A DNA stretch of 64,000 nucleotides from Flagellimonas oceanensis (lineage in GTDB: Bacteria > Bacteroidota > Bacteroidia > Flavobacteriales > Flavobacteriaceae). The notes beneath the pieces were generated by a model. The model searched no databases. It saw only the letters and a list, made by a program, of their open reading frames with translations, and had not been told where the DNA came from. Below, piece by piece: positions 5,082-23,818 of the stretch (position 1 is the first letter of the stretch; every line of letters begins with the position of its first letter). A program made the translations under genes and the position numbers. The stretch spans positions 1 through 64,000 of the forward strand of contig NZ_RZNA01000005.1 of NCBI RefSeq assembly GCF_003992595.1, given 5' to 3'.

Positions 5082-6440
5082 ATGCCAGAAACAAACCGTA
5101 TAGAATACAAACGAGAACTGTCCGATGGGCTTGAAAAAGAGGTCATTGCTTTTTTGAACTATCGCGAGGGTGGTATTCTCTATATCGGTATTGACAAAAA
5201 CGAGAATGTTTACGGTTTGGCGGATTCGGATGGCGACCAACTTAAGATTAAGGATAGGCTAAAGAACAACATCCGACCTTTCGCATTGGGTCTGTTTGAC
5301 ATCGTGAGCGAGGAACGGGATGGTAAAGACATCCTTAAAATTATTGTCGCCAGCGGTCCTGAAAAACTGTATCATCTTAGAAAGTATGGGATGAGCGAAA
5401 AGGGGTGTTTTATCCGTATGGGTTCATCTGCAGAGCCAATGTCCCAAAAGATGATAGACGAGCTCTTTGCTAAGCGCACACGAAATTCCATCAGCAAAAT
5501 TAAATCTGGACGACAGGACCTGAGCTTTGGACAGTTGAAAATCTATTACGAAGAAGCTGGCTATAATTTGGGGAAAGCCTTTACAAAGAACCTGGAATTG
5601 CTTACCGAAGATGGCGCATTCAATTACGCAGGCTATCTTTTAGCTGACAAGAACAATACCTCTATTAAAGTGGCCAAGTATTCAGGCAAGACCCGAACAG
5701 ATCTCATTGAAAGTAACGAATATGGTCACGAATGCTTGGTAAAAGCGACCAAGCAGGTCATTGATAAGATTGCCGTCGAGAACAGAACAGCCACAAAAAT
5801 TACCGCAAAGGAACGACAACAGGCCAATCTTTGGAATCCCATCGCCTTACGGGAAGCTATTATCAATGCATTTGTGCATTACGACTATACCAACGAGATT
5901 ACCCCAAAGTTTGAAATCTTTTCGGACAGGATAGAAATTACATCAGCTGGTGGTCTGCCCGAAGGTTTGAGCAAAAAGGAATTTTTTGAGGGCTTTTCAG
6001 TCCCACGGAATAAAGAACTGATGCGAATTTTTAAGGATTTAGAACTGGTGGAACAATTAGGTTCTGGCATCCCTCGTATTTTGGAACACTATGGCAAAGA
6101 GAGTTTTAGTTTTTCTGATAACTTTCTTAGAATGACATTTGAGGCTAAAGAAACTACTGTTGATGAAGGTGGTGCAAAAGGTGGTCTAAAAGGTGGTCAA
6201 ATAGGTGGTCAAATCGAAAAGGATATTGGTGCCATTTCTGAATTAACACATAGACAAAAAGAAGTTCTGAAGTTAATTGCTCAAGATAATCGAATAAGTC
6301 GTTCCGGTATTGCAGAAGTATTACATATCAATGAATCTGCAATTCAAAAACACCTCAATAATTTAAAGGATGCTGGATATATAGAGCGTGTGGGCGGAAC
6401 AAGAGGCTATTGGGAAATCAATCTCGATAAAAATAAATAA
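5082..6440 (+). CDS. AlbA_2 (Schlafen-like) domain protein with HATPase-like and winged-helix domains
   Basis: A 452-residue protein of the COG2865 type, usually called ATP-binding protein or transcriptional regulator. The N-terminal AlbA_2 domain (about 1-130) begins IEYKRELSDGLEKEV and has the strand GGILYIGIDKNENVYGL. The middle (about 250-350) has NPIALREAIINAFVHYDY and EIFSDRIEITSAGGLP, typical of the HATPase_c_4 region. After a Gly-rich linker built of four 12-base repeats (6168-6215) comes a winged helix (about 385-445) with ISRSGIAEVLHINESAIQK. It is divergent from the TrlF-like gene and may control it, or act as a companion; that pairing is inference. Exact biochemical function of this family is not settled. 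Confidence 0.75.
   Translation: MPETNRIEYKRELSDGLEKEVIAFLNYREGGILYIGIDKNENVYGLADSDGDQLKIKDRLKNNIRPFALGLFDIVSEERDGKDILKIIVASGPEKLYHLRKYGMSEKGCFIRMGSSAEPMSQKMIDELFAKRTRNSISKIKSGRQDLSFGQLKIYYEEAGYNLGKAFTKNLELLTEDGAFNYAGYLLADKNNTSIKVAKYSGKTRTDLIESNEYGHECLVKATKQVIDKIAVENRTATKITAKERQQANLWNPIALREAIINAFVHYDYTNEITPKFEIFSDRIEITSAGGLPEGLSKKEFFEGFSVPRNKELMRIFKDLELVEQLGSGIPRILEHYGKESFSFSDNFLRMTFEAKETTVDEGGAKGGLKGGQIGGQIEKDIGAISELTHRQKEVLKLIAQDNRISRSGIAEVLHINESAIQKHLNNLKDAGYIERVGGTRGYWEINLDKNK
6168..6215 (+). repeat. Four tandem 12-base units encoding a Gly-Gly linker
   Basis: GGTGGT recurs at 6168, 6180, 6192 and 6204, each unit 12 bases long, encoding GGAK, GGLK, GGQI, GGQI. The unit keeps frame, so gain or loss of units would only change linker length between the ATPase-like and winged-helix domains. 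Confidence 0.85.
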
Positions 6441-10634: not shown

Positions 10635-13043
10635 TTATGTTTTAGATGTGAATTGAATTATTGCTTTTTCCATATCCTGATGCTCATTGTAGAGCTTCAT
10701 TATTTCCTCATTTTCCTTTCCATCCGTTAAGTAGGCGGCATAAACTTCCTTTGGAACTTCCAACCGGAAGATGTTGCTTTCCTTCCCGATTTTGATGAAC
10801 ATTTCGGTGTACTTCCGTGGTCCGGAAAGATTGTTCTTGATGGACTTTAACTGATTCAGGTCGTGGCTGGAAAGATTAAGGCGTTTGACCAGTTCATCAT
10901 AACCCTTTTCATTGTTTAAGCTGTAAATGACCTGTGTATTTTCAAGAATACTGGCCGATGTAGAATTGTTGGGTAACTGATTGATGGATTGTAAAATAAT
11001 ACCGATAGCACCGTTTTGCTTTCTGATGGCTTGGTAGTAGAATTCCACACTTTCCAGTACATTATCAAACTTCAGTTGCTTCGCAAACTCATCGAACAGG
11101 ATGATGCCCTTTTCGGCACGATTGCGCCAGATGGTTCTTTGGATGGCCGACTTGATGAGCTTGAGCATTACGGACAAGATTTCCTTATTGTCCTTCACTT
11201 CATCCAGTTCAAAAACAATCAATCGTTTGTCCTCAATTTTATAGGTTTGGTCCTCGCTAACTTCAAAGAGAAAACTATATAGACCATCGCCGACATACTC
11301 GGATATCACGTGCAGAAAGCTCGTTACATTAAAGTAGTCGGGATGGATTTTTAGGTCGCTCAGAATATCTTTTTGATGCCTTTCTATAAAATTGTAGAAG
11401 CCTTCCAGAGAATGGTTTTCAGAAGTGCTATCGTAATAATGACGCAGTATTTTTTTGATCGAAACGGATTGTGCTTTCGTCACTTTTAAATCAGAAGCAA
11501 ACAATTCAAAAAGGAACACCGATAAATCTTCAAGCCGTTCCGGTGTTAGGTCATTTTTATCGCTAATAAAGAATGGGTTAATACCAAGGTTCTTTCCGCT
11601 CTCATAGCGAAGCACGGTGTACTTTTCGGGATAGAGCTTGGCAAATTTGGTGTAGGATCCACCCAAGTCAATAATGACCAAGCGGACACCTTTTTCAAAA
11701 TACTGGCGCAGTATGTTATTGGCAAGGAACGATTTGCCTTCGCCCGTTGGGGCGAAAATGGCAAAGTTTCGTGCTTTGATACGCTTCTTTCGTTCATCCC
11801 AAACATCTTTAAGAACTGGAATGTTATGCTCTCGGTCATTAAAGATGATTCCGGTATCGTCAGATTTGTAGTTGGTATTGTTAATGGACAGGCAAAGTGC
11901 TTGTTTCAAATCTGTTACATACAAATCATTGTTCGAGAAGTTGGATGAAAAACAGCAATAGCTGTTCAGGATGTAATTCTTGCGTTCTTCACCTCTTGGA
12001 TAATATGGGATGATATCCAGTTCCTTGAACTCGGTCTTGATTTTTGAAGTAATGGAATCCAGACTTTTTTTGTCCTTTGCCCAATAGACCACATTCAAAT
12101 GACCTCGGATAATCCGTGCATTGTCATCGGCATTGATTTGGTCAAGGATGTGCTGGATTTTACCAAGAACCACCTTATTCTGCGAACCGAAATTGGAACT
12201 TTTGTTAAGCTCTTCTATTTTCTTGTCGAGCAGCTTTCGCCATTTCTGTTTATCATCCAAATACAAAATTTGGTTTACGATATGGTTCTCGTTCAACGTA
12301 AGCCCTAAGCCATCAATAAACCCTTGATGAAATACAAAATCGTCAGAAGTGAATTTCTCATTGGTCTTGCTACTTTGTACACTTTCGCCAAAGCACAGTT
12401 CGCTGTTGACGGCCAGGGCATCAAAATGATTGTCACCGATGGTGACGTTTTTCTTTTCCAGTAGGATGTCGGTATCAAATCCTTCACTAAATCCATTGAA
12501 GTATGAGCTGGTCAAGTCTTCTATTTCTTTCGCTTGAAGCGGAATAAAACGCATCTTTCTACTATTGTTGATGAAGGACACCGAATCGCTGACCGCATTG
12601 GCAAATACCTTAATGTTGTCATCCATTTGCTGGACAATCCCCTTAGAAACCTTCCGGAACGGATTGACATATTTAGAATTGTTGAGTGCCTTGTTTTTAG
12701 TCAGGATAAAGAACAGATAGCATTGGTGCTCTATATAACCAAGTCCCTTAAAATGGTTGTGGGTGGCCTTTTCAAGAAAAGATGTGTTGGGCAATTGTTC
12801 TGAAGAGTAGGACTTCTTTAAATAGATATCCTGTTTATGAACCACCGTTCCAACAGGTAGTGACTTCAAGGCTTGGAACCACGCACCGTGTATATCCTCA
12901 AAGTCCTTTTCAGAAAGCGAATAGATTTCTGGCAGATTCCCTTTATAGCACAACACCACATTGCCATTATTGGCAAAGACGATATTATCCTGAATATCTG
13001 CAATGGGTTGATATGCTGAGAGGTTCATCTTATTCATATTCAA
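10635..13043 (-). CDS. traG: Conjugative transposon ATPase TraG (VirB4-like)
   Basis: 802 residues. Walker A APTGEGKSFLANN lies near residue 432, the segment LVIIDLGGSYTKFAKLYP follows, and Walker B IILFDEFAKQL lies near residue 650, with a sensor-like GIILQSINQLP after it. This is the VirB4-type motor that powers channel assembly and substrate transfer in CTnDOT-like elements, not to be confused with the VirD4 coupling protein whose remnant lies at 1333-1893. Its start overlaps traF by 14 bases. Full length for the family. Confidence 0.93.
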   Translation of the reverse strand: MNMNKMNLSAYQPIADIQDNIVFANNGNVVLCYKGNLPEIYSLSEKDFEDIHGAWFQALKSLPVGTVVHKQDIYLKKSYSSEQLPNTSFLEKATHNHFKGLGYIEHQCYLFFILTKNKALNNSKYVNPFRKVSKGIVQQMDDNIKVFANAVSDSVSFINNSRKMRFIPLQAKEIEDLTSSYFNGFSEGFDTDILLEKKNVTIGDNHFDALAVNSELCFGESVQSSKTNEKFTSDDFVFHQGFIDGLGLTLNENHIVNQILYLDDKQKWRKLLDKKIEELNKSSNFGSQNKVVLGKIQHILDQINADDNARIIRGHLNVVYWAKDKKSLDSITSKIKTEFKELDIIPYYPRGEERKNYILNSYCCFSSNFSNNDLYVTDLKQALCLSINNTNYKSDDTGIIFNDREHNIPVLKDVWDERKKRIKARNFAIFAPTGEGKSFLANNILRQYFEKGVRLVIIDLGGSYTKFAKLYPEKYTVLRYESGKNLGINPFFISDKNDLTPERLEDLSVFLFELFASDLKVTKAQSVSIKKILRHYYDSTSENHSLEGFYNFIERHQKDILSDLKIHPDYFNVTSFLHVISEYVGDGLYSFLFEVSEDQTYKIEDKRLIVFELDEVKDNKEILSVMLKLIKSAIQRTIWRNRAEKGIILFDEFAKQLKFDNVLESVEFYYQAIRKQNGAIGIILQSINQLPNNSTSASILENTQVIYSLNNEKGYDELVKRLNLSSHDLNQLKSIKNNLSGPRKYTEMFIKIGKESNIFRLEVPKEVYAAYLTDGKENEEIMKLYNEHQDMEKAIIQFTSKT

Positions 13044-13595: not shown

Positions 13596-13784
13596 AACGA
13601 ATGGGTTTAAATTTTTGGTTCATTTTCGTTATGTGAAATTTACATATATTTGAATATAAATAACTGAAAATCAAATATTTGTGAATAAAATATTATTTGA
13701 TATTATTTAGTTTTCGATGTTATTATTTGACATCAAATTCTATGAAATTTTGAAGTGGAACTGTTAATAAGAGAAAAATTGAAA
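13596..13784. promoter_or_regulatory. Divergent control region between traE and the amidase gene, with direct repeats
   Basis: Very AT-rich. TATTATTTGA occurs at 13691-13700 and 13721-13730, with a partial copy TATTATTTAG at 13701-13710. A dyad GATGT-N9-ACATC spans 13716-13734 around the second copy, and CAAATATTTG near 13672 is a palindrome. On the plus strand TATATTTG at 13645-13652 is a full match to the Bacteroidetes -7 element. The region must hold the tra operon promoter on the minus strand, but I could not pick a clear -7 there. Confidence 0.5.
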
Positions 13785-14417
13785 ATGAAAAAGTGGCTCA
13801 AAAACGTCAGTTTTATGATTTTGCTTCTCAAAAGTTGCATCTTTTTGGGTCAGGATTTGGATGAGAAAAAAATCATCGTAATTGACCCTGGCCACGGCGG
13901 AAATGATTCCGGTGCAATTGGGGTAAATAACTTAAAGGAAAAGAGTATAACCTTGGAAATAGCAAGGTTGATTTCAGAATTGGCCGAGAAAAACCACAAT
14001 AAAACTGTGGAAATTTATCAAACACGTTATAGCGATACCTTAATTTCTTTAAGTGATAGGGGCAAGCTGGCCAAAGTTCTAAATGCAGATTTGTTCCTGT
14101 CCTTGCATTGCAATCATTCGGATAATCCTAATGCTCGTGGTGTAGAAATCTATGTGTTCAATCAAAGGTCGAAGTTTTTGGATGAAGCAACTTGGTTGGC
14201 GTTTCAATTACAAGCTGATTTGAATGACAAGTTGGGATTTGAAAGTAGAGGCGTAAAGTTTTCCAATTTTCAGGTGCTTCGGGAAACGAAGGACTTTATG
14301 CCATCCGTTCTATTGGAATTGGGGTTTTTAAGTCATCCTAAAGAGGAAAAATATCTTGTAGTCACAAAGAATATTACACTCTTGGCGAACATCATATTAA
14401 AATCAATAAACAATTAA
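13785..14417 (+). CDS. N-acetylmuramoyl-L-alanine amidase (Amidase_3) of the ICE
   Basis: I take the ATG at 13785 (MKKWLKN), giving 210 residues with a signal peptide; an earlier in-frame ATG at 13755 would put a charged segment before it. Amidase_3 zinc motifs are clear: IVIDPGHGGNDSGA (first His and acidic ligand region), LFLSLHCNHSDN (second His) and SVLLELGFLSHPKEE (catalytic Glu). It cleaves the amide between MurNAc and L-Ala in peptidoglycan. Genes like this accompany Bacteroidetes tra operons, where local wall opening would help channel assembly. It is read away from the tra operon. Confidence 0.87.
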   Translation: MKKWLKNVSFMILLLKSCIFLGQDLDEKKIIVIDPGHGGNDSGAIGVNNLKEKSITLEIARLISELAEKNHNKTVEIYQTRYSDTLISLSDRGKLAKVLNADLFLSLHCNHSDNPNARGVEIYVFNQRSKFLDEATWLAFQLQADLNDKLGFESRGVKFSNFQVLRETKDFMPSVLLELGFLSHPKEEKYLVVTKNITLLANIILKSINN

Positions 14418-14420
14418 TCA

Positions 14421-14480
14421 ATGAAAGAACTATCTCAAAAAATTTTACATAGTCTTAAAGCAATTTCAAAAACGACATAG
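14421..14480 (+). CDS. 19-codon remnant or leader frame after the amidase
   Basis: Three bases after the amidase stop an ATG opens MKELSQKILHSLKAISKTT and then stops. It looks like the start of a helical protein cut short, perhaps the left edge of the inserted ietAS cargo. It could equally be chance. Confidence 0.25.
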   Translation: MKELSQKILHSLKAISKTT

Positions 14481-14493
14481 AAGTAATAATTTC

Positions 14494-16959
14494 TTATATC
14501 AAAATGTCTATTTGATTGAGAACGGGATTATATAGGTCAACCGTATTGTCTGGTGATTCAATAGATAGAATTAAACTGTACCTGACTTGACTATTGTAAC
14601 GCAACAATTTTTTTCTGGTACGCCACCAACCATTGACAGGATAAATGGCAACTTTATTTCTGGTAGCTAAGTCGGCAGCGGTGCCTTTCCAAATATCTTT
14701 ATGCACAGAGCCCTTATCCCGAACTTTATTTCCGATAATCCAACTTTCTCCGGAATACGAACCATTTTGGTCTTCTAATCTAGCTTCGCGATTTACTCTT
14801 TCCCGAAAATGTTCAATAGTTTCACCCGAATCAATCATTTTAAACCGCAGACCGTGAGATTGATAGTAATATGATTTACTGTATTGCTTGTTGCCGGGGT
14901 TTGGTTCTATAAAATAACATAATGTGGCCGTAAGGGTTACTTCGCTATCAAATAATCCCGTTAGAACATCGGTAGGCCAAGGTAAACTGTGTAAATGCAT
15001 TTGATTTGTTTTAACCGTACCATCATCAAGTATAAAAGGACTCAAAGATTCTTGCGCAATAAAGGTAAGTGAATTGTTTGCGCTTCTTACAGCTTTTTGA
15101 AAATCGGGAACGCCGTACCCAAAAGTTCTTAGAAGCCTGATTTGTTCTGTGTTGTTCAATTCCTGTATAGCCCTGTTACCAAGCATTTCATTTGTCCAAT
15201 CGGCCGAATGAACAAGAAGGCCCTTTATGGTTTCTGGCCATAATGTGGGATATTGCGAAGTTAGCATTGCTGCATACCTAGAGGCCAAAGCTGTAGCTCC
15301 ACTGGTATCACCAAAGCTGGAAAGAGGTTCGGTTCTAAAATTTTTTCCAACGGAAAGTACTCTTAGTGAATCTGGGTCGATTATACCTCCGTTATGAATA
15401 CCATAATTGCCACCTTCCATAACCAGTTCTGGCTTTAGAGCCCAATTGTTTTCCCACATTACTGAAGTGCTATTGCTTGGTGACATACCACCTGCAGGTA
15501 CTAAAGGTGTTGCTCCATTAAATTGACCTTGGTCTATGACGGTTTTTTGGGTAAATGAACCAATGGTAAGTGCATTGAAGGCCTGTGCAGGGTCGTGTAT
15601 AGATTCTTCAAAATTCTTTTGTGGATATTCCGAAATATTAAATATCACGGTATTTCCGCTTGAGACACAGAACAGTGATTTGTCATCAGTTGTACCTTCC
15701 TCTCCAAAAGCAATTTTATCTACGGAGCTTGACCACGATGATGGTTTACCTTTGTCACGTCCATCAGTAGCAGTTACCGCCATTGCTAATACTCGCTTGT
15801 TGGTAGGGTTTAGAATTATTGCCCTGGCAATGGCTTCTTCCGTTACTGCACCATATAATTCAGGTTGATGCGGGTTGTTGGGATGAATTAATTTGATAGA
15901 TTCAAGCCGATGGAATATTTCAATATTTGAGTTGTCCTGCAATAAATCGGTAAGGTCTCCATAAAGTGCAATTCCTGCCATTGGTGTTCCGTGGCCGTGG
16001 GGATGTGTGTCGGCATTTCCCCATTCAGGGTTTACGGAATCCATATTGTCTTCTGGGATAAAACCCTGTAGCAAGGAATGACCTCGGTTTACACCTGTGT
16101 CCAATAAGCAGATTATAACGGAATCATCAGTGGTTCTATCAATCGTTCTATTTCTTAGGTCCTCAACCCAATCGTTGGCATCATCGTTATTTAATCCTGT
16201 GAAAAAATCAGCAGCTTCTTTGGGTTTTCTTAATTCTGCTAGTTTATCAGTATATAACAGAGTAGTTGATAGTTCTCTTGCTGTACCTCGAATCATTCGA
16301 ACAATGTGCTCTGGGAACAACAATCTCCGTTCAGCAACCACAATTACATTATCTAAGAGCATATTTATCATCTCCTCATCTTCACGGATGTCGTTTTGTG
16401 AGTTGTCTCGTCGTAACCAAACTTCCCACCAAACTTCTTCATCGAGACCAGGAAAATCGATTTCATCCTCTTGCCAAAAACTTGCCAAAGTAGCCTGCTG
16501 TATATTAGCAATATTATTGAGCAGCTTAGTGTTTCTAGGGTTACCGGAATCACTGTCCTTCTCGGGATCTAGATAAGCTTCGATTTTTCTCAGGAATTTG
16601 GATATTCCATTGGTGTTTAAAAACACACAAGCCCTGTAGCGTTCGTGTTCCTGACCGTCAATTATGACTTTTTCCAATTTTGACGATACAAAACGATGGT
16701 CGCCACTTCTACCATCTTCAAAACTATCAAAGGCCAAAAGGCAATCCTTTTCAGAAATAAACTCCAGATATACAAAATCCATATCTGTATTTTGCCTAAA
16801 GGCCATTTCAGCCATTTGAAGCTGGTTGCGCAACGCATTTCCGTGAGTGTTTCTATTTCTCCCAATTGGAGTTACTCTATCCCGTCCTGTGCTTGGGCTT
16901 GTATAAGACTCGGTAGATGCATACCCAGAAAGAATTATGTGTTCTAAGTTTCTAGGCAT
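14494..16959 (-). CDS. S8 subtilase partner of an ATPase, IetS-like
   Basis: 821 residues with no signal peptide, so it acts in the cytoplasm. The subtilisin triad is complete: Asp287 in CLLDTGVN, His323 in HGHGTPMAG and Ser553 in GDTSGATALAS, with the oxyanion Asn436 in VSSGN. About 270 residues precede the protease domain, with a further 200 after it. The start lies 7 bases after the stop of an AAA ATPase gene in the same direction. A cytoplasmic subtilase coupled to an AAA ATPase is the layout of ietAS, a plasmid stability/incompatibility pair validated as antiphage defence by Gao and colleagues in 2020. Target protein unknown. Confidence 0.85.
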   Translation of the reverse strand: MPRNLEHIILSGYASTESYTSPSTGRDRVTPIGRNRNTHGNALRNQLQMAEMAFRQNTDMDFVYLEFISEKDCLLAFDSFEDGRSGDHRFVSSKLEKVIIDGQEHERYRACVFLNTNGISKFLRKIEAYLDPEKDSDSGNPRNTKLLNNIANIQQATLASFWQEDEIDFPGLDEEVWWEVWLRRDNSQNDIREDEEMINMLLDNVIVVAERRLLFPEHIVRMIRGTARELSTTLLYTDKLAELRKPKEAADFFTGLNNDDANDWVEDLRNRTIDRTTDDSVIICLLDTGVNRGHSLLQGFIPEDNMDSVNPEWGNADTHPHGHGTPMAGIALYGDLTDLLQDNSNIEIFHRLESIKLIHPNNPHQPELYGAVTEEAIARAIILNPTNKRVLAMAVTATDGRDKGKPSSWSSSVDKIAFGEEGTTDDKSLFCVSSGNTVIFNISEYPQKNFEESIHDPAQAFNALTIGSFTQKTVIDQGQFNGATPLVPAGGMSPSNSTSVMWENNWALKPELVMEGGNYGIHNGGIIDPDSLRVLSVGKNFRTEPLSSFGDTSGATALASRYAAMLTSQYPTLWPETIKGLLVHSADWTNEMLGNRAIQELNNTEQIRLLRTFGYGVPDFQKAVRSANNSLTFIAQESLSPFILDDGTVKTNQMHLHSLPWPTDVLTGLFDSEVTLTATLCYFIEPNPGNKQYSKSYYYQSHGLRFKMIDSGETIEHFRERVNREARLEDQNGSYSGESWIIGNKVRDKGSVHKDIWKGTAADLATRNKVAIYPVNGWWRTRKKLLRYNSQVRYSLILSIESPDNTVDLYNPVLNQIDILI

Positions 16960-16966
16960 TTATAAA

Positions 16967-17950
16967 TTAAAACTTGGTCTTTTTATTTTGGATAAATTTA
17001 AAAAGAGTAGCGGAAGACACTTTTTCTGTGTTTTGTACAATCATCTCCTTAATTGCATCCTTACAAGCATTGGAAACGTCCGCAAAACTAAGTCCTACAG
17101 CCTCTTTGGCAAGTGCATTCACGGTTTTGCCTTTGGCAAGCGAGTACCCCTTTAACTGAACTTTGATGAGTTCGGCAATTTCCTTGCTGCTTGGTAAAGG
17201 ATATTGTATAATGTCATCGAATCTCCTGAATAACGCCTTATCAAGAGATTCAGGAATATTGGTAGCGGCAATCAACAAACTATTCGATTGGTCTTTCTCA
17301 ATATTCATTAAAAAACTGTTTAGAACACGCTTGATTTCCCCGACATCGTTACCATAGCTGCGATTTGAACCTATGGAATCAAATTCATCAAACAGGTAAA
17401 CCGCTCTATGTTGGTACATCGAATCAAATATCAATTTAAGCTTTGCTATAGACTCACCCATATAGCGACTAATCAATCCATCCAAACGGATAATGAACAA
17501 TGGAATTTCCAAGTCGCCAGCAATTGCTTTGGCCGTCATTGTTTTTCCACAACCAGGAGGGCCAACTAGCATTAATTTTCGCCTTGGTTCTAAATTATGC
17601 TGTAAGAGCTGATCAAATTTCAGTTGTTCTGAGAGAATACGTTCAATAGCTTCCGAAACTTGTTCGGTCAAAACCATATCCTTGGTTTTGATATGTGGTC
17701 TATAAACTTCTAGTAAATCCTTTAACTCTCTTTGGGCTTCATTTACAGGAAGAATTCTTGTTTTTGAAACTGAATCGACTTTTCGCTTTGACTTGATTTT
17801 TTCAATCAAGACCTTCAATTCCTCAGCAAGTTTTGTATGCCCTTTTTTGGCTTCAGAAGCGGCAATTTGCATTGCGGTGGTGTAAAAACGATTATCGTCT
17901 TCGTCACCAAAACTTTGTAATAATGCCTTTATTTTTTCTGCCGCTGCCAA
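16967..17950 (-). CDS. AAA ATPase partner of a subtilase, IetA-like
   Basis: 327 residues. Walker A GPPGCGKT at 130-137, Walker B YLFDEFD at 185-191, sensor 1 IAATN near 230 and an arginine finger in LFRRFDD near 240 place it with the FtsH/VPS4-like classical AAA group. The first 100 residues are helical and probably bind the partner or target. It is read just before the subtilase and is likely its regulator, either unfolding targets for it or holding it inactive. The pair sits between the conjugation amidase and the DnaC-like gene, so it is cargo. Confidence 0.85.
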   Translation of the reverse strand: MAAAEKIKALLQSFGDEDDNRFYTTAMQIAASEAKKGHTKLAEELKVLIEKIKSKRKVDSVSKTRILPVNEAQRELKDLLEVYRPHIKTKDMVLTEQVSEAIERILSEQLKFDQLLQHNLEPRRKLMLVGPPGCGKTMTAKAIAGDLEIPLFIIRLDGLISRYMGESIAKLKLIFDSMYQHRAVYLFDEFDSIGSNRSYGNDVGEIKRVLNSFLMNIEKDQSNSLLIAATNIPESLDKALFRRFDDIIQYPLPSSKEIAELIKVQLKGYSLAKGKTVNALAKEAVGLSFADVSNACKDAIKEMIVQNTEKVSSATLFKFIQNKKTKF

Positions 17951-18006
17951 ATTATTTTTAACAAAAATAGTAAAATGAAAATTTTAATTCTCTAGCAATT
18001 GCATAT

Positions 18007-18669
18007 TTATTTTCTCTTATCCCCAGCCGCCTTATCAAAAGCAATCAAATTAAAGAGTTCACGCATCCGGCTTCGGACACGATTGCCGTAGCGTTCTTCC
18101 AGTTCTTCGGCGTTAAGGTTAGTGGTGGCGTGGGTCTTGATTTTTCGCTTGGTGGAAAGGTAAAGCTCGTAGCGTGATAAAAGTACTTCGCCCATTACGT
18201 TCAAGTCCTTGCCATAAAATCGGCCAGCAGGTTCAACTCCCAAATCGTCAAAACAATAGAATTTGGTATTGCCATATTCCTCGACCGTTTTAAAGCCCAA
18301 ATGGTTAAACCCAAAGGTTACGTTTCGGCAGGGAATCACTTCATACGGACGTTGTAAGGGTACGATATGCCGTAATAATTTCATCAGGCTTGTTTTTCCG
18401 CATCCCACAGGGCCGGAAAGCAGTATGCCCTTGTCAATATCAATGCCATTTGCGTTGCAATATTCCTTGTCTTTGATAAAGTAGGAACAGAGCTTCAAGA
18501 GAATATCTCTGTCCTCATCATAAATCCTAAACTTTTTGCCGAACAACAGCTTTCCTTTGGCATTCAGGTAAATTATGATTTTAGGAAAATCGTACACTAT
18601 GCTTTTCCCGTCGAATGTTCCGATCGAATATTCCACGCTACCTTCTGTGATTTTAGAGGGGTTGTCCAT
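18007..18669 (-). CDS. DnaC/IstB-like ATPase of the ICE
   Basis: I choose the ATG at 18669 (MDNPSKITEG), giving 220 residues; the frame is open further upstream, but that part lies inside the preceding gene. Walker A SGPVGCGKTS lies near residue 80, Walker B FYCFDDLGVEP near residue 130 and a sensor-like THATTNL near 180. The look is that of DnaC-type helicase loaders. With the wHTH protein before it, which it overlaps by 17 bases, it probably forms a small replication module for the excised circle. Confidence 0.75.
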   Translation of the reverse strand: MDNPSKITEGSVEYSIGTFDGKSIVYDFPKIIIYLNAKGKLLFGKKFRIYDEDRDILLKLCSYFIKDKEYCNANGIDIDKGILLSGPVGCGKTSLMKLLRHIVPLQRPYEVIPCRNVTFGFNHLGFKTVEEYGNTKFYCFDDLGVEPAGRFYGKDLNVMGEVLLSRYELYLSTKRKIKTHATTNLNAEELEERYGNRVRSRMRELFNLIAFDKAAGDKRK

Positions 18670-19405
18670 AGTCTTTTGTTTTAGTGGTACGCAGGTTGTC
18701 CTTGATTTGGGATGCTTGTTTTTTGTTTGGTTTGTTTTCGGTGTCGAACAGTTCGGTACGGTCCATCCAGTTGATGGCCACCGCACGCCAGTCACGAATC
18801 GGTTCCCCATCGCCTGTTTGCCAATTTCGATCAGTATAGTGCTGATAGAATTTTTCCGCTTCATCGGCATCAAAATTCTTTTCCTCAAAAAAATCAGTGA
18901 CGGCCTGACAGTCCTTTGGCTGTTTTATATAGTTTTCCTCTTTGGTATTGTTTGTATTAGATACCAATGCTTGTCCGCTGGTGGGACGGTGCGGGTTCAC
19001 TACCTGTCCGTTTTTGGGATGGTTGTGTCCTCCAAGCGGTACACCTCTGGGATAGTACTGTTCCGCAAGCTGTTCTAAAATGGGATTGTACTGTCCCGCA
19101 TCCGGTTCATCACTTGTCCCGATAATGGACATCTTCACTTTGCTGCCCTTGTACGGATTGTTTGAAGGAAAATAGGAGAGGTATTGCCAACCGTCCAAAT
19201 CGACGATGCATCTGTGGTAGGTAGATTTTGAGCCAATCTTGGCCACACGCATCAGCTCTCGGCGGTTCACGTAGAACTCTTCGGCAAAACGGTTGCTGTT
19301 CCATTCCTGGAACAGGGCCATATACAGGCTGATATGGGTCGGGTTTAGGCGGTCATCAAAATAGAACTTTTCAAAAGCCGCATTGAGTAGCTTTATGTAG
19401 TTCAT
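18653..19405 (-). CDS. Winged-helix, DnaD/RepA-like protein of the ICE
   Basis: 250 residues. The first 110 look like a winged-helix domain (NPTHISLYMALFQEWN, then RRELMRVAKIGSKSTYHR, a recognition helix, and GWQYLSYFPS for the wing). After a disordered middle comes a short C-terminal segment EKFYQHYTDRNWQTGDG with DWRAVAINW, a DnaD-like tail. Such proteins initiate or help replication in plasmids and ICEs. It starts 3 bases after the HTH gene and overlaps the DnaC-like gene at its end, so the three form one operon. No enzyme motif is present. Confidence 0.65.
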   Translation of the reverse strand: MNYIKLLNAAFEKFYFDDRLNPTHISLYMALFQEWNSNRFAEEFYVNRRELMRVAKIGSKSTYHRCIVDLDGWQYLSYFPSNNPYKGSKVKMSIIGTSDEPDAGQYNPILEQLAEQYYPRGVPLGGHNHPKNGQVVNPHRPTSGQALVSNTNNTKEENYIKQPKDCQAVTDFFEEKNFDADEAEKFYQHYTDRNWQTGDGEPIRDWRAVAINWMDRTELFDTENKPNKKQASQIKDNLRTTKTKDYGQPL

Positions 19406-20013: not shown

Positions 20014-20850
20014 TTATTTCTCGCTTTTATCCATTTCGGAAAGAAGGGAAGTGGATAGCTCATCGAGGAAAAGGGTTCGGCTTTTTTTCCTGTATTTGAT
20101 GTCTTGATAAGTTTTGTAGATGTCTTTCGGCTCAACATCAAAAATCTGGCTTAAGTAATCTGAAATTTTAACAATACTCAGATTGTTTTTAGCGCCAAGC
20201 CCTTTAGCGTGAAGCGCATAAATGAGTTCCACATAGTCTGTATTGCTGAACGGCCAATGCATTTTTTCGGTGTGAGATAATGAAATCTCATTTCCATTCA
20301 ACCCATTCTTCAATTTATTTTGCTTGTCCACTAAATATTTGGTTAGGGACTTGTAGGCATTGTATTTGCCGAGCAACATATCTCTTGCTGTACAGAATTC
20401 TGGGTCTTGAAAATAGAATTTTGAAAGTGTGATATGATACCCATTGAGATAATCACGAGTGTAATACTCTTTATCAAAATGCGTCTGCCCTGATTCGATG
20501 TATCTTCCGAAGTCCAGATTATAGAGAAAGAATCGATTGAGTTTGTTGCTTTTCTTTTTGACGGATTTGAGCTGCCTTTTTAAGTCGATTTTCGGGAACT
20601 GAATTTCAAACGAATGGATTTCGGAATAGTAGATTAACTCAACGAGAGGGACTTGTTTGGTTACTTTAAAAAAATGGATTTCGTCTTGAATGGATTTGAA
20701 GCCTTGCGACAGAACCTCTTTTTTAAGCAAGCTTAATGAATCACGGCAGAGCCCAATGGAACGGTGTGCCCTTTCAAGGATGCTCTCGTTTTGAAGTTTT
20801 ATATCATCAAGTTCTTTTTTTAGTCGCTGTGTTAATAATTGAAAGTCCAT
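20014..20850 (-). CDS. rteC: RteC-family regulator of ICE excision
   Basis: 278 residues. The C-terminal third has the RteC marks: HWPFSNTDYVELIYALHAKG followed by an ISDYLSQIFDVEP helix and YRKKSRTLFLDEL. In CTnDOT, RteC is the winged-helix activator of the excision operon. The gene is followed, in the same direction, by the dyad region and the excisionase operon, the same order as in CTnDOT. No RteA/RteB two-component genes accompany it; a membrane LuxR protein stands in their place. The N-terminal 150 residues are less conserved and helical. Confidence 0.85.
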   Translation of the reverse strand: MDFQLLTQRLKKELDDIKLQNESILERAHRSIGLCRDSLSLLKKEVLSQGFKSIQDEIHFFKVTKQVPLVELIYYSEIHSFEIQFPKIDLKRQLKSVKKKSNKLNRFFLYNLDFGRYIESGQTHFDKEYYTRDYLNGYHITLSKFYFQDPEFCTARDMLLGKYNAYKSLTKYLVDKQNKLKNGLNGNEISLSHTEKMHWPFSNTDYVELIYALHAKGLGAKNNLSIVKISDYLSQIFDVEPKDIYKTYQDIKYRKKSRTLFLDELSTSLLSEMDKSEK

Positions 20851-21125: not shown

Positions 21126-22040
21126 TTATCTTTTTTTGCGAAACCGCTTTAAAAATTCACGACGGTTCTTCACACCGGTTTTCTTGAAGATATTTGAGGC
21201 GTGTTTTGATACGGTGCTTTCGGCAATGAAAAGTTCCTCGGCAATTTTCTTATAACTAAGATTGCTAAGAATGGATAACGCAACTTCAATTTCCCTTCTC
21301 GTTAAATCCTCATAGATTATCTTGCGCTCTACAGATTCTTCGCGTTGTTTTTTCTTCAGGGCAAACACTTCATACATTCGGGTATTGTTTTCCAAAAAGT
21401 ATAGATACCTATCTACCTCAATGGCTGTAATGGCAAAGAAGGCCAAGTTCATTACGGTAAAAGTTATCCATTGATAATCGCCTATCACGGTGCAAATTGG
21501 CAACAGAGCTATACTCGCTACGCTCACCATAGACAATTTGTTTCGCCTTAAAATAAACGCATTCGGATTGCTCGGATTTGAAATACGTCTATAGAAAATG
21601 ATGAGAAATATAAACGCTATTAAGGATATGGGAATAGTAAAAAGAAAGCGAGCCGCATCCAAAGAGTCTGTCAAAAAATAAGGCATCAAAAAAAGGACAA
21701 CATAGCTGCCACTCGCTAAAAATGCGAGATTTTTAATGGATGAGTTGAATTTCAATACGACGATGTCATATTCTTTATAGAGGTAGTAAACGATATATAC
21801 GCATAACGCAATGGCCACGCCATACGTAATGATATATTGAAGGATGAATGGCCCTGGAAAGTTCTCTATGGGTAAAAATCCGCCCGTAGCATTGTACGTT
21901 ATGAAAAGGATGCCGAGATATAAAAACCGTCGAAGGCTACTTCGTGCATTTCTTCTCGAAAAGTAAAATGTGAGCAATACAATGACCGTATCTATTAAAA
22001 GATAAAAGAAAGTTGTCCAATGTATTGACGTGCCAAACAT
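21126..22040 (-). CDS. Membrane-bound LuxR-family regulator
   Basis: 304 residues. Six or seven hydrophobic spans fill residues 8-215; the C-terminal 65 form a LuxR/GerE HTH: LTRREIEVALSILSNLSYKK, then IAEELFIAESTVSKHASNIF as recognition helix. A sensor in the inner membrane would pass a signal straight to the DNA-binding domain. It follows the asparaginase-domain gene after 5 bases and precedes rteC in the same direction, so it probably takes the place of RteA/RteB in controlling rteC. The signal is unknown. Confidence 0.78.
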   Translation of the reverse strand: MFGTSIHWTTFFYLLIDTVIVLLTFYFSRRNARSSLRRFLYLGILFITYNATGGFLPIENFPGPFILQYIITYGVAIALCVYIVYYLYKEYDIVVLKFNSSIKNLAFLASGSYVVLFLMPYFLTDSLDAARFLFTIPISLIAFIFLIIFYRRISNPSNPNAFILRRNKLSMVSVASIALLPICTVIGDYQWITFTVMNLAFFAITAIEVDRYLYFLENNTRMYEVFALKKKQREESVERKIIYEDLTRREIEVALSILSNLSYKKIAEELFIAESTVSKHASNIFKKTGVKNRREFLKRFRKKR

Positions 22041-22045
22041 TTACT

Positions 22046-22534
22046 TTACTGGTCATTGCGCTCAAATTTGTTGGTTTCTAAATTTTTTGAAACATTGTTC
22101 CAATTGAAAATCTGTCCGTTCATAGCAATATAAACATCCGGTTTTAGAAGCTGTAATGAGCTCAGTGCATAGCCTAAATTAAATGGTGCATCTGTCTCTG
22201 CAGATGAACCTAAAATGAAAGACCCAACCAGTACGATGGTTTTATTCAGGTTGAGTTTTCCGATATATTTTGCGGTATCTTCCATTGTGAAAGTACCGTG
22301 AGTTATCAAAATTTTTGTCGCAGCAGATTCATTTATCTTGCAAACCAACTGCGCTCTGTCCTCATCTGTGATGGCCCTGCTATCCTTTTTGAACACACTT
22401 TTGATGGTGTAATCAAAATCAATATTGGCACTCTCAAGAAAACTTTGAATCGTGACATTTGATTGGGTGATTCCTTTACCATCTACATAATCCAGTCCTT
22501 CTATGGTGCCGCCGGTTGTAAGAATATGTATCAT
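22046..22534 (-). CDS. Single-domain asparaginase-like protein with altered active site
   Basis: 162 residues, equal to the N-terminal half of a type I/II L-asparaginase (usually about 330). TTGGTIEG near the start keeps the first catalytic Thr region. The second motif, normally HGTDT, reads HGTFT (in ITHGTFTMEDTA), so the Asp that holds the substrate amino group is Phe. The C-terminal half domain is missing. A classical asparaginase is therefore unlikely; a sensing or binding role next to the LuxR gene is possible. Proteins of this size recur in Bacteroidetes ICEs. Confidence 0.75.
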   Translation of the reverse strand: MIHILTTGGTIEGLDYVDGKGITQSNVTIQSFLESANIDFDYTIKSVFKKDSRAITDEDRAQLVCKINESAATKILITHGTFTMEDTAKYIGKLNLNKTIVLVGSFILGSSAETDAPFNLGYALSSLQLLKPDVYIAMNGQIFNWNNVSKNLETNKFERNDQ

Positions 22535-22603: not shown

Positions 22604-23818
22604 TCAGAAGTTAATTACATTTTCCAAAGCATCATCTGCATCTTTATGAATGAAATTAGCTTGATAGTTAATGGTGGTTTTCAAATCCGTATGGCGATAT
22701 AATTTTTGAAGCATAAGCGGGTGAATGTTGTCGCCTGCAATATTGCCAAAAGAGTGTCGAGCAATGTGCATCGTAACTTTTTTCTGGATGCCTGCTCTTT
22801 TCGCAATCTTTTTAAGGTGGTCATTGAATTTTTTGTTCGCTACTTTTTTCTTTCGATATATGTCTTTCGCATCAGATAAGTCGGCTTTTTTCATTTCGGA
22901 GAAAACAAAGTCATCATCATTTACTCTTTCCTCAACATACTGTAATAAGATTTTTTCAACTTTAGCTGGAATTTTAAGCGACAGTAACTTTGAATTTTTT
23001 CCCATTCTATAATTCAATCGCCCATCATAAATCTCGGACCATCTTATAAACAACACATCTGAAACACGCATTCCAGCAAAATAGAAACTGAACAACCAAA
23101 CATTTAATGAGTGTCTTTCCATATCAGTTAGTTCAGTAACACTTTCAAGGGCTTTTATTTCTTTACTTGAAAGCCCTGTTTTTGTGGTTTCGGGAAATTT
23201 GATTTTAAACTTATCCTTTCCAAAGGGATATATTTCCTTGCTAACAACCTTATCTCGAATAGCTCTATTAAATAGTAATCGTATCAAGACCATTACATTC
23301 ATTGCAGTAGTTTCAGTTAATGAGCAAGAACCTTTTAAATGAATCTTAAATTTTTTGAGAAAGCGCTCATCGATTTCTTGAAAAGTCAAATGTCGGCCAG
23401 AGCAATATTTTTCTATATAGCTTACCCAAGCTGAATCTGTAGAATGGCGATTGATTTTCTTTTCGGCCTCTAAGGCTTCAAGATGCTCGTCAGCAAAATC
23501 AAAAAATGTTAAGCTCGAAGTTGGCTTGTATATTTCTTTTTTGATTTGTCGAGCAGAAGCAGCTTTATTATCCGTCTGTAGTGCAATAAGCCCTTTTCTG
23601 GCTTCGGATAGTTTGGAAGCTATCAAATTGTTTAGACTTTCAGCTTCAGAATGCGATTTTTTTACCTTTAGGTTTTTAGAGTCCCAATCCTCTAATTCAA
23701 TATAATGACCTATATGTTTGTAAGTTGAACGACGGTCTTTGGTTATCCTTATCGCAAGCGGAAAAAGCCCTTTTGCGTTAGGCTTTTTGCGAAGTATTAT
23801 TTTTGCACTCGTTGACAT
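22604..23818 (-). CDS. int: Tyrosine site-specific integrase of the ICE
   Basis: 404 residues. An N-terminal arm-binding domain (1-100) is followed by a SAM-like core-binding domain (about 105-200) and the catalytic domain. The active site is complete: Arg251 in AGMRVSDVL, Lys274 in MGKNS, His351 and Arg354 in HIARHSFGN, His376 in YRHTD and Tyr385 in TTINY as the nucleophile. It would cut and rejoin attP with the tRNA-Leu attB. It lies about 200 bases inside the right att fragment and is read away from it, with three short direct repeats between. Confidence 0.94.
   Translation of the reverse strand: MSTSAKIILRKKPNAKGLFPLAIRITKDRRSTYKHIGHYIELEDWDSKNLKVKKSHSEAESLNNLIASKLSEARKGLIALQTDNKAASARQIKKEIYKPTSSLTFFDFADEHLEALEAEKKINRHSTDSAWVSYIEKYCSGRHLTFQEIDERFLKKFKIHLKGSCSLTETTAMNVMVLIRLLFNRAIRDKVVSKEIYPFGKDKFKIKFPETTKTGLSSKEIKALESVTELTDMERHSLNVWLFSFYFAGMRVSDVLFIRWSEIYDGRLNYRMGKNSKLLSLKIPAKVEKILLQYVEERVNDDDFVFSEMKKADLSDAKDIYRKKKVANKKFNDHLKKIAKRAGIQKKVTMHIARHSFGNIAGDNIHPLMLQKLYRHTDLKTTINYQANFIHKDADDALENVINF

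Follow-up and report, generated by a model that had tools for sequence, protein, structure and literature searches.

A pTiC58-branch IetAS gene pair in the cargo slot of a Bacteroidota ICE, probably acting as a toxin-antitoxin-like module

We analysed a 64,000-nucleotide stretch of Flagellimonas oceanensis DNA (contig NZ_RZNA01000005.1, positions 1 to 64,000; hereafter the window), in which an ATPase gene and a protease gene occupy the variable cargo slot of an ICE that, from its gene set, we take to be of the CTnDOT kind. The features, by window position and strand, are as follows:

13755-14417, plus strand: amidase gene, flank of the slot
14418-18006, no strand: the ICE's variable cargo slot, bounded by two flanking genes whose 3' ends converge on it
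14494-16959, minus strand: ietS-like gene, S8 (subtilisin-type) protease of 821 aa, proposed toxin/effector
14500-15084, minus strand: C-terminal beta-rich region of IetS, about residues 626-820
15112-16125, minus strand: S8 catalytic domain, IetS residues 279-616
16099-16101, 15991-15993 and 15301-15303, minus strand: IetS triad codons D287, H323 and S553, respectively
16228-16434, minus strand: second ferredoxin-like unit, IetS residues 176-244 (predicted, AlphaFold2)
16495-16776, minus strand: first ferredoxin-like unit (beta-alpha-beta-beta-alpha-beta), IetS residues 62-155 (predicted, AlphaFold2)
16967-17950, minus strand: ietA-like gene, AAA ATPase of 327 aa with a TTG start, proposed antitoxin/regulator
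17540-17563, minus strand: Walker A of IetA, GPPGCGKT
17962-17969, minus strand: TATTTTTG, promoter-like box 11 bases before the ietA start, putative function
18007-18888, minus strand: AAA-like gene, flank of the slot

The two genes are co-oriented, with the ATPase directly upstream and 7 bases between the end of ietA and ietS. The initial annotation, made from the sequence alone, had described this IetAS-type ATPase-subtilase pair, its spacing, its location in a Bacteroidota ICE and a full Asp-His-Ser triad including Ser553, and the analysis bears it out on all of these points. Pfam identified Peptidase_S8 in IetS (E 4.2e-54, residues 279-616) and AAA in IetA (E 5.3e-30, residues 126-251); D287, H323 and S553, together with N436, were invariant in 35/35 aligned sequences, the window's copy included. 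Walker A, Walker B and the arginine finger are all present in the window IetA, and across 54 IetA sequences we found Walker A and R[RK]F in every one, a strict Walker B pattern in 45 and ATN in 46. The low hydropathy of IetS (maximum 19-residue Kyte-Doolittle mean 1.17; <0 near the N-terminus) is consistent with a cytoplasmic protein, hydropathy being no test of localisation. The ietA start codon is TTG in 6/8 close copies, the window included, and ATG in the other two. The box TATTTTTG matches what we take to be the Bacteroidota -7 box, TANNTTTG; all 8/8 close copies have the pattern within 40 bases upstream of ietA, and in 6/8 it lies 11-12 bases from the start codon. These counts are not independent because the copies are related, and the pattern also occurs in 344/12000 shuffled 40-mers.

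Among relatives of the pair, an ATPase gene lay upstream of the protease, at most 514 bases from the protease match, in 53/53 loci with more than 1 kb of upstream sequence (57 loci were examined, some near-copies of each other; L012, L100, L123 and L125 were short of upstream sequence). A housekeeping protease with no ATPase beside it, the case that the initial annotation had set against itself, is thereby ruled out. The pair is therefore real and not a product of chance, since the same gene order recurs in unrelated hosts, all 53 loci are paired and dN/dS is low. Comparison of close copies shows purifying selection on both genes: against L009, dN/dS is ~0.05 in ietS and ~0.03 in ietA. Within IetS it is 0.053 over residues 1-270, 0.051 over the S8 part and 0.035 over the C-terminal part, values that give no strong sign of arms-race evolution of the N-terminal part among close copies. 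Against more distant copies the N-terminal part alters somewhat faster at the protein level than the S8 part (pN with L010, L069 and L070 of 0.082, 0.162 and 0.136 vs. 0.075, 0.106 and 0.124, with synonymous sites near saturation), and mean identity in a wider alignment (32 rows) was 25.7% and 27.9% for the N-terminal units, 39.5% for the S8 part and 41.5% for the C-terminus; the structure alignments were built from the window plus 34 (A3) or 31 (A4) of the 57 loci. For parts of ietA, one metagenome survey reports positive selection (PMC10924106).

By sequence comparison, the pair is a member of the known IetAS family and shares a large branch of it with pTiC58 IetAS. Window IetS shares 34% identity with pTiC58 IetS over residues 1-816, and the two IetA proteins are 42% identical. 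In a 94-row IetA tree (midpoint root, with long branches outside the group of interest), the window and pTiC58 fall in a 72-row group (support 100/98) that excludes L018-L020 and L067; within it, the window lies in a 16-row sub-branch (81/73) and pTiC58 in a 55-row sub-branch (85/84), both weakly supported, which makes pTiC58 a cousin rather than the closest relative of the window pair. The initial annotation had suggested profile comparison with IetA and IetS, and the outcome was divided. The PADLOC models matched window IetA (4.6e-76, residues 3-324) and window IetS (6.5e-37, only residues 271-773), the IetA model alone being unspecific (at E 1e-45 it was matched in 6/14 control genomes). 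The NCBIfam anti-phage equivalog models, in contrast, gave 38.5 bits for the protease (cut-off 900) and 208.3 bits for the ATPase (cut-off 510); pTiC58's own pair was likewise far under cut-off (39.9 and 198.8 bits), and therefore defence data do not carry over in a simple way.

The N-terminal 270 residues or so of IetS had been described as matchless and as a possible target-sensing region. They have clear relatives: they align along their full length with pTiC58 IetS, and 387/479 matching plasmid records cover at least 80% of the protease, which together rule out an orphan N-terminal domain. Pfam gave no match for this part of window IetS, and PDB sequence searches returned at best one match with the N-terminal profile (E 0.39) and none at E 0.01 with the full protease. 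In the predicted structure, the catalytic domain and the C-terminal region together match KP-43 (1wmd), and the second ferredoxin-like unit directly precedes the catalytic domain, the propeptide position in subtilases. Residues 159-250 aligned with pro-Tk-SP (3afg_A; Z 7.7, rmsd 2.5, 81 aligned) and with POIA1 (1v5i_B; Z 7.0), scores that unrelated ferredoxin-like folds equal (top Z 8.7); the unit thus has the predicted position and shape of a subtilase propeptide, yet is inseparable from other ferredoxin-like folds. The top Foldseek match of the full model was again pro-Tk-SP, with an rmsd of 22.5 over the whole alignment, too large to fix where the N-terminal part sits relative to the catalytic domain. 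Target sensing finds no support here; position and predicted fold would be at least as compatible with a regulatory role resembling that of a propeptide. A more specific idea, which we regard as speculative and unlikely as it stands, is that the two ferredoxin-like units form a double inhibitor of propeptide type that stays attached for good, with IetA as an ATP-driven machine that either holds this inhibitor against the active site or pulls it away; if true, IetAS would be an intracellular zymogen switch in which the AAA ATPase, and not self-cleavage, sets the state of the subtilase.

We compared 20 ICE regions, a non-random set of high-ranking neighbour-gene matches, the pair carriers L069 and L070, L068 (a further ICE of carrier G144) and L071 (one same-genus genome); L060, L065 and L066, with no tra genes within 10 kb, were left out. 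L076 served solely to locate the pair. Among the 17 related ICEs, which include near-copy slots (L055/L056; L054/L057/L058/L059; L061/L062), the slot is empty in two and holds a window-type pair in two, and the remainder carry CBASS (L053), a type II methyltransferase operon (L063), another IetAS branch (L067), or metal-related or other genes. In 12/17, L064 included, the slot was empty or no defence family was identified in a scan over part of the slot ORFs. The pair has recently spread together with the ICE. The left end of the shared stretch is an insertion sequence and not an ICE end, and no 11-base direct repeat was found between the two ends of that stretch.

pTiC58 IetAS has been described as a toxin-antitoxin pair, and ietAS was reportedly tested against phages by Gao and co-workers in 2020. 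The initial annotation's 'tested as defence' was too strong for this pair: its place in the IetAS family stands, the NCBIfam anti-phage cut-offs were missed, and the tests in relatives that our search turned up concern toxin-antitoxin behaviour. In the SGI1 pair, SgiT is reported to be toxic and SgiA neutralising, with 36% identity between SgiT and pTiC58 IetS and 50% between SgiA and pTiC58 IetA (PMC5006074). The mycoplasma T133 is likewise reported to be toxic and A132 neutralising (PMC8562856); cells tolerated loss of the toxin gene, alone or together with the antitoxin gene, whereas loss of just the antitoxin gene was lethal (PMC6755753). Our search of the open-licence PMC literature found no toxicity, stability or phage test of the window pair or of any Bacteroidota copy, and no paper on this ICE slot or on Bacteroidota IetAS.

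We reasoned that the pair is probably a toxin-antitoxin-like ICE cargo of the pTiC58 branch, in which a toxic protease, IetS, is held by IetA and freed on ICE loss or infection; the module probably guards the ICE or fights phages. IetS would be a cytoplasmic protease, harmful when free, and its N-terminal ferredoxin-like units together with the IetA ATPase, probably a ring, would keep it inactive or misdirected. Were the ICE lost, IetA would decay, or else an invader might disturb the complex, and the freed IetS would cut one or more cell proteins, resulting in growth arrest or death. The outcome would be a stabilised ICE and possibly aborted phage or plasmid entry, and the promoter-like box just upstream of ietA would allow the pair to move and be expressed as a unit. 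The observed basis consists of the order of the genes, their intact active sites, homology over the full length, purifying selection in close copies, the shared cargo slot and the recent spread with the ICE. We favour this reading because of the pTiC58 homology, the near-universal pairing, the conjugative plasmid carriers (336 of the 479 plasmid records with a match were typed conjugative and 28 mobilizable) and the toxicity tests in relatives, and also because the slots of some relatives hold other defence modules. Counted against it are a Planctomyces plasmid (L021) with a distant IetS-like gene and no IetA relative beside it, and the SGI1 pair, for which expression from the native promoter reportedly produced no post-segregational killing (PMC5006074). 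The NCBIfam scores under cut-off, the separate IetA sub-branches of window and pTiC58, the predicted nature of the folds and the negative literature search for tests of a Bacteroidota copy also weigh against it.

A primarily anti-phage, abortive role, in which infection would be sensed by IetA or by the IetS N-terminal part and IetS would then cleave phage or host proteins, ICE loss being no relevant trigger, is credible but in our view less likely than not. PADLOC places both proteins under IetA/IetS, a PADLOC Ppl match lies elsewhere on the same ICE, and the slot holds CBASS, methyltransferase and other-branch IetAS genes in relatives; however, the branch that bears the anti-phage name is a different one, the N-terminal profile has no match in the L067 protease, and most of the 17 slots were empty or gave no identified defence family among the ORFs scanned.

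Exclusion of plasmids or ICEs, whereby the host is made to reject related incoming elements, seems unlikely to us. The title of the pTiC58 paper (Yamamoto 2009) names incompatibility besides stability, and conjugative types prevail among the plasmid carriers, but one genome can carry the marker gene of this type of ICE at several positions (four matches in carrier G144, two in G203), so that exclusion is not absolute and could only be specific. Less likely still is a two-polypeptide ATP-dependent protease, with IetA recognising, unfolding and feeding proteins to IetS as an activator and not an antitoxin. The near-obligate pairing would suit such a machine, as would the next best NCBIfam matches of IetA (proteasome-activating nucleotidase and FtsH), whereas the protease of relatives is reportedly toxic without the ATPase and neutralised by it, and the best matches of the predicted IetS core are ordinary subtilisins, enzymes that do not form a closed chamber.

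The pTiC58 branch of IetAS, familiar from work on plasmid and island maintenance, is here represented in a mobile slot where some relatives carry defence genes, and toxin-antitoxin and defence roles therefore become testable on one element. The database label 'anti-phage' rests on models that miss the branch containing pTiC58, the N-terminal region is common to that branch and open to dissection, and the slot is a place to seek more defence and resistance cargo in Flavobacteriaceae ICEs.

Compared with known systems, the window pair resembles pTiC58 IetAS in the order and close spacing of its genes, in homology that runs the full length and takes in the N-terminal 270 residues, and in its mobile location, but differs in host phylum, in lying in an ICE cargo slot and not on a Ti plasmid, and in its IetA sub-branch. 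SgiAT of Salmonella genomic island 1 likewise joins an ATPase antitoxin to an S8 toxin on a chromosomal mobile element, and its probable relation to the window pair follows from its reported identity to pTiC58 IetS and IetA (PMC5006074). Mycoplasma T133/A132, as described, shares the upstream AAA ATPase, an S8 protease (757 aa) and the reported toxicity and neutralisation, but is chromosomal, in mycoplasmas and minimal cells. NCBIfam IteA/IteS (NF042959, NF042956) is also an AAA and S8 pair, with alignable ATPase and catalytic domains; unlike it, the window pair scores under cut-off, and the protease-model alignment begins only at residue 270. The L067 pair (PADLOC PDLC02195/PDLC02199) occupies the identical ICE slot and is a gene pair of equal kind, its protease reaching 1026 bits on a PADLOC IetS model and a higher NCBIfam score than the window protease, still under cut-off (270 and 323 bits for the pair); it differs from the window pair in its opposite orientation, in an IetA of 33% identity over residues 49-272 and in a protease to which the N-terminal profile finds no match.

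The ietA-like and ietS-like genes lie on the minus strand of the window, separated by seven bases:

16967-17950, minus strand: AAA ATPase (IetA) gene, 327 residues, TTG start
14494-16959, minus strand: S8 protease (IetS) gene, 821 residues

We found that IetA carries a Walker A motif (GPPGCGKT), Walker B, sensor 1 and FRRFD, and that residues D287, H323, S553 and N436 of IetS are invariant in 35/35 aligned sequences; no secretion signal was evident on IetS by hydropathy. Among close copies, every part of the pair is under purifying selection (dN/dS ~0.03-0.05 against the comparison locus L009). PADLOC names the two proteins IetA and IetS, and the initial annotation had rightly recognised the kind of pair: both genes are present, with domains and active-site residues intact, and together they are a further member of IetAS, a kind already known. 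Across eight close copies (window counted), IetA starts with TTG in six and ATG in two, and the pattern TANNTTTG, a putative Bacteroidota -7 element, occurs at most 40 bases upstream of the start in 8/8 and at 11-12 bases before it in 6/8; the chance level is 344/12000 shuffled 40-mers, and the eight copies share kinship.

A plasmid tblastn with the protease matched 479 records, 387 of which cover at least 80% of the protease in one place and 336 of which are typed conjugative; the best match was a Haliscomenobacter plasmid (43% identity), followed by Rhizobium etli p42d (40%), with Enterobacter and Klebsiella plasmids at 37-39%. Matches were found in 2/50,697 phage records, at 51 IMG/VR loci (whose contigs may be fragments of prophages or plasmids) and, at E 1e-20 or better, in 6/299 same-family genomes and 3/21 relatives (the window's own counted in both). 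Among 57 loci examined, some of them near-copies of one another, all 53 that have more than 1 kb upstream carry an ATPase there, no further than 514 bases from the protease match. A distant plasmid homologue of IetS (L021:3161-5716, from a Planctomyces plasmid) has no IetA relative beside it and immediately follows parA/parB. The PADLOC IetA model rang in 53/395 Bacteroidota genomes and also in 6/14 control genomes, and the former figure is therefore not a count of IetAS.

The N-terminal 270 residues of the protease had been thought to have no known match; this is refuted by the pTiC58 homologue, which aligns over residues 1-816 at 34% identity (Ti plasmid of A. fabrum C58 GV3101, plasmid tblastn). 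At 10 of the 29 loci from the PADLOC IetA search (window excluded) the protease match begins within residues 1-17, a lower bound given that these loci span only ~4 kb. In AlphaFold2 models (mean pLDDT 84.3 for the whole of IetS and 82.0 for residues 1-276), residues 62-155 and 176-244 each run beta-alpha-beta-beta-alpha-beta, as read by eye. The second predicted unit resembles ferredoxin-like folds by VIA-align 2 (mitochondrial small-subunit ribosomal chain 8csr_E, Z 8.7; homoserine dehydrogenase, Z 8.6; pro-Tk-SP N-terminal part 3afg_A, Z 7.7, rmsd 2.5, 81 residues; POIA1 1v5i_B, Z 7.0), and, because these scores bunch across such folds, only position and fold type argue for a propeptide-like reading. 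Acetohydroxyacid synthase regulatory subunits are among the best Foldseek rows for the N-terminal model (E 8e-5, with low TM-scores). The catalytic and C-terminal parts (model 280-800) align with the KP-43 protease 1wmd (Z 27.4, rmsd 2.8, 374 residues).

In a 94-row IetA tree (midpoint root, long branches), a 72-row group (support 100/98) holds both the window and pTiC58 and leaves out the comparison loci L018-L020 as well as L067 and its neighbours. Inside this group, the window belongs to a 16-row sub-branch (81/73) that also contains Bacteroidota copies and two IMG/VR loci, and pTiC58 belongs to a different one of 55 rows (85/84). By hhalign, the N-terminal profile matched the L018/L019 profile at a probability of 93.6 over 222 columns and did not match the L067 protease (probability 0.2), a weak negative with a single sequence on the L067 side. 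The best PADLOC protease model aligns only residues 271-773 of the window IetS and 283-822 of that of pTiC58, and the NCBIfam anti-phage equivalogs score 208 and 38.5 for the window ATPase and protease (cut-offs 510 and 900) and 198.8 and 39.9 for the pTiC58 pair. As both pairs fit poorly, the seed sequences of these models probably came from another part of the family.

The slot that holds the pair (14418-18006; L052-L071 in relatives), between two converging genes (an amidase gene and an AAA-like gene), is a cargo hotspot of this Flavobacteriaceae ICE family.

Contents of the slot in 17 readable ICE relatives (20 fetched, 3 dropped; a non-random sample with several near-copies)
Empty: 2/17 (114 and 231 bases)
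This kind of pair: 2/17 (ICEs picked because they are carriers)
A different IetAS: 1/17 (L067)
CBASS: 1/17 (L053; cyclase 884 bits, 2TM effector 501 bits)
Type II methyltransferase and GHKL-type ATPase gene: 1/17 (L063)
Operon including a 5-hmdU DNA kinase helical domain: 1/17 (L064)
MerT-type gene: 5/17 (domain scan in L054; other four by like ORFs)
ArsR/AHSA1/DUF1801 set: 2/17 (L055 scanned)
FUR/TonB receptor/cation efflux set: 2/17 (L061 scanned)

The ICE-marking neighbour gene was matched in 91/299 family genomes (E 1e-20, many matches distant), and the protease lies within ~3 kb of it in four of six protease-bearing genomes. The pair is thus occasional cargo, outside the ICE core. The cargo at L064:3164-8242 comprises eight ORFs, including HTH, IrrE-type peptidase, the kinase helical domain, dCTP deaminase-like, MazG_C and ACPS domains, and resembles a system linked to modified bases or nucleotides. 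At L070:5595-7301, the pair has as its neighbour in the slot a gene for a 568-aa protein that matches the NERD (nuclease-related) domain.

The pair lies amid the conjugation genes of the ICE and other genes, among them:

10635-13043: TraG P-loop ATPase (conjugation)
20014-20850: RteC gene
22604-23818: tyrosine integrase

Window positions 1337-24089 (22,753 bases) are 99.956% identical to G172, a genome from a different genus in the family; over 17.6 kb, an Allomuricauda MAG (L007) reaches 99.96% identity. Beyond the right end of the shared stretch the window genome and G172 differ; in both, that end looks like the 3' portion of a tRNA-Leu(TAG) gene, and an ARAGORN scan of the window returned no complete tRNA. 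Near-identity in another genus, together with the same tRNA-Leu(TAG)-like end, points to very recent transfer between genera. At 60-1893, insertion of a Mutator-family transposase gene interrupts a coupling-protein gene, whose C-terminal piece (1303-1893, TraG-D_C) has an end resembling a 496-codon open frame in G172; the window copy may be unable to transfer by itself. Two further genes of the ICE may form a second stretch of defence cargo: one at 2041-4896 (minus strand), whose product matches the PADLOC Ppl model (137 bits), and one at 5082-6440 (plus strand) for a Schlafen AlbA_2 protein. At 21126-22534 (minus strand), beside the integrase, the ICE encodes a short protein of the asparaginase N-terminal type (162 aa) and, adjoining it, what reads as a regulator that resembles a membrane protein and ends in a LuxR-type part.

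The pair had been presented as matching a system tested as defence; its kind stands, but the strength of the defence evidence was overstated, and both proteins miss the NCBIfam anti-phage cut-offs. According to a 2023 paper, the ietAS defence mechanism was then still to be described (PMC9958689). The close copy in Gillisia limnaea (L011:8001-10466) has an in-frame stop in its protease gene, yet its ATPase retains a match across 327 residues, a single case that would be as expected were the ATPase an antidote. According to the respective reports, deletion of the antitoxin gene alone is lethal in mycoplasma and deletion of the toxin gene or of both is not (PMC6755753), and a toxic protease is neutralised by an ATPase both in SgiAT of SGI1 (PMC5006074) and in mycoplasma T133/A132 (PMC8562856). 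Given these reports, we favour a reading by analogy in which the window IetS would likewise be a protease toxin restrained by IetA, and in which the uses of the pair, stabilising the ICE and defence, would overlap.
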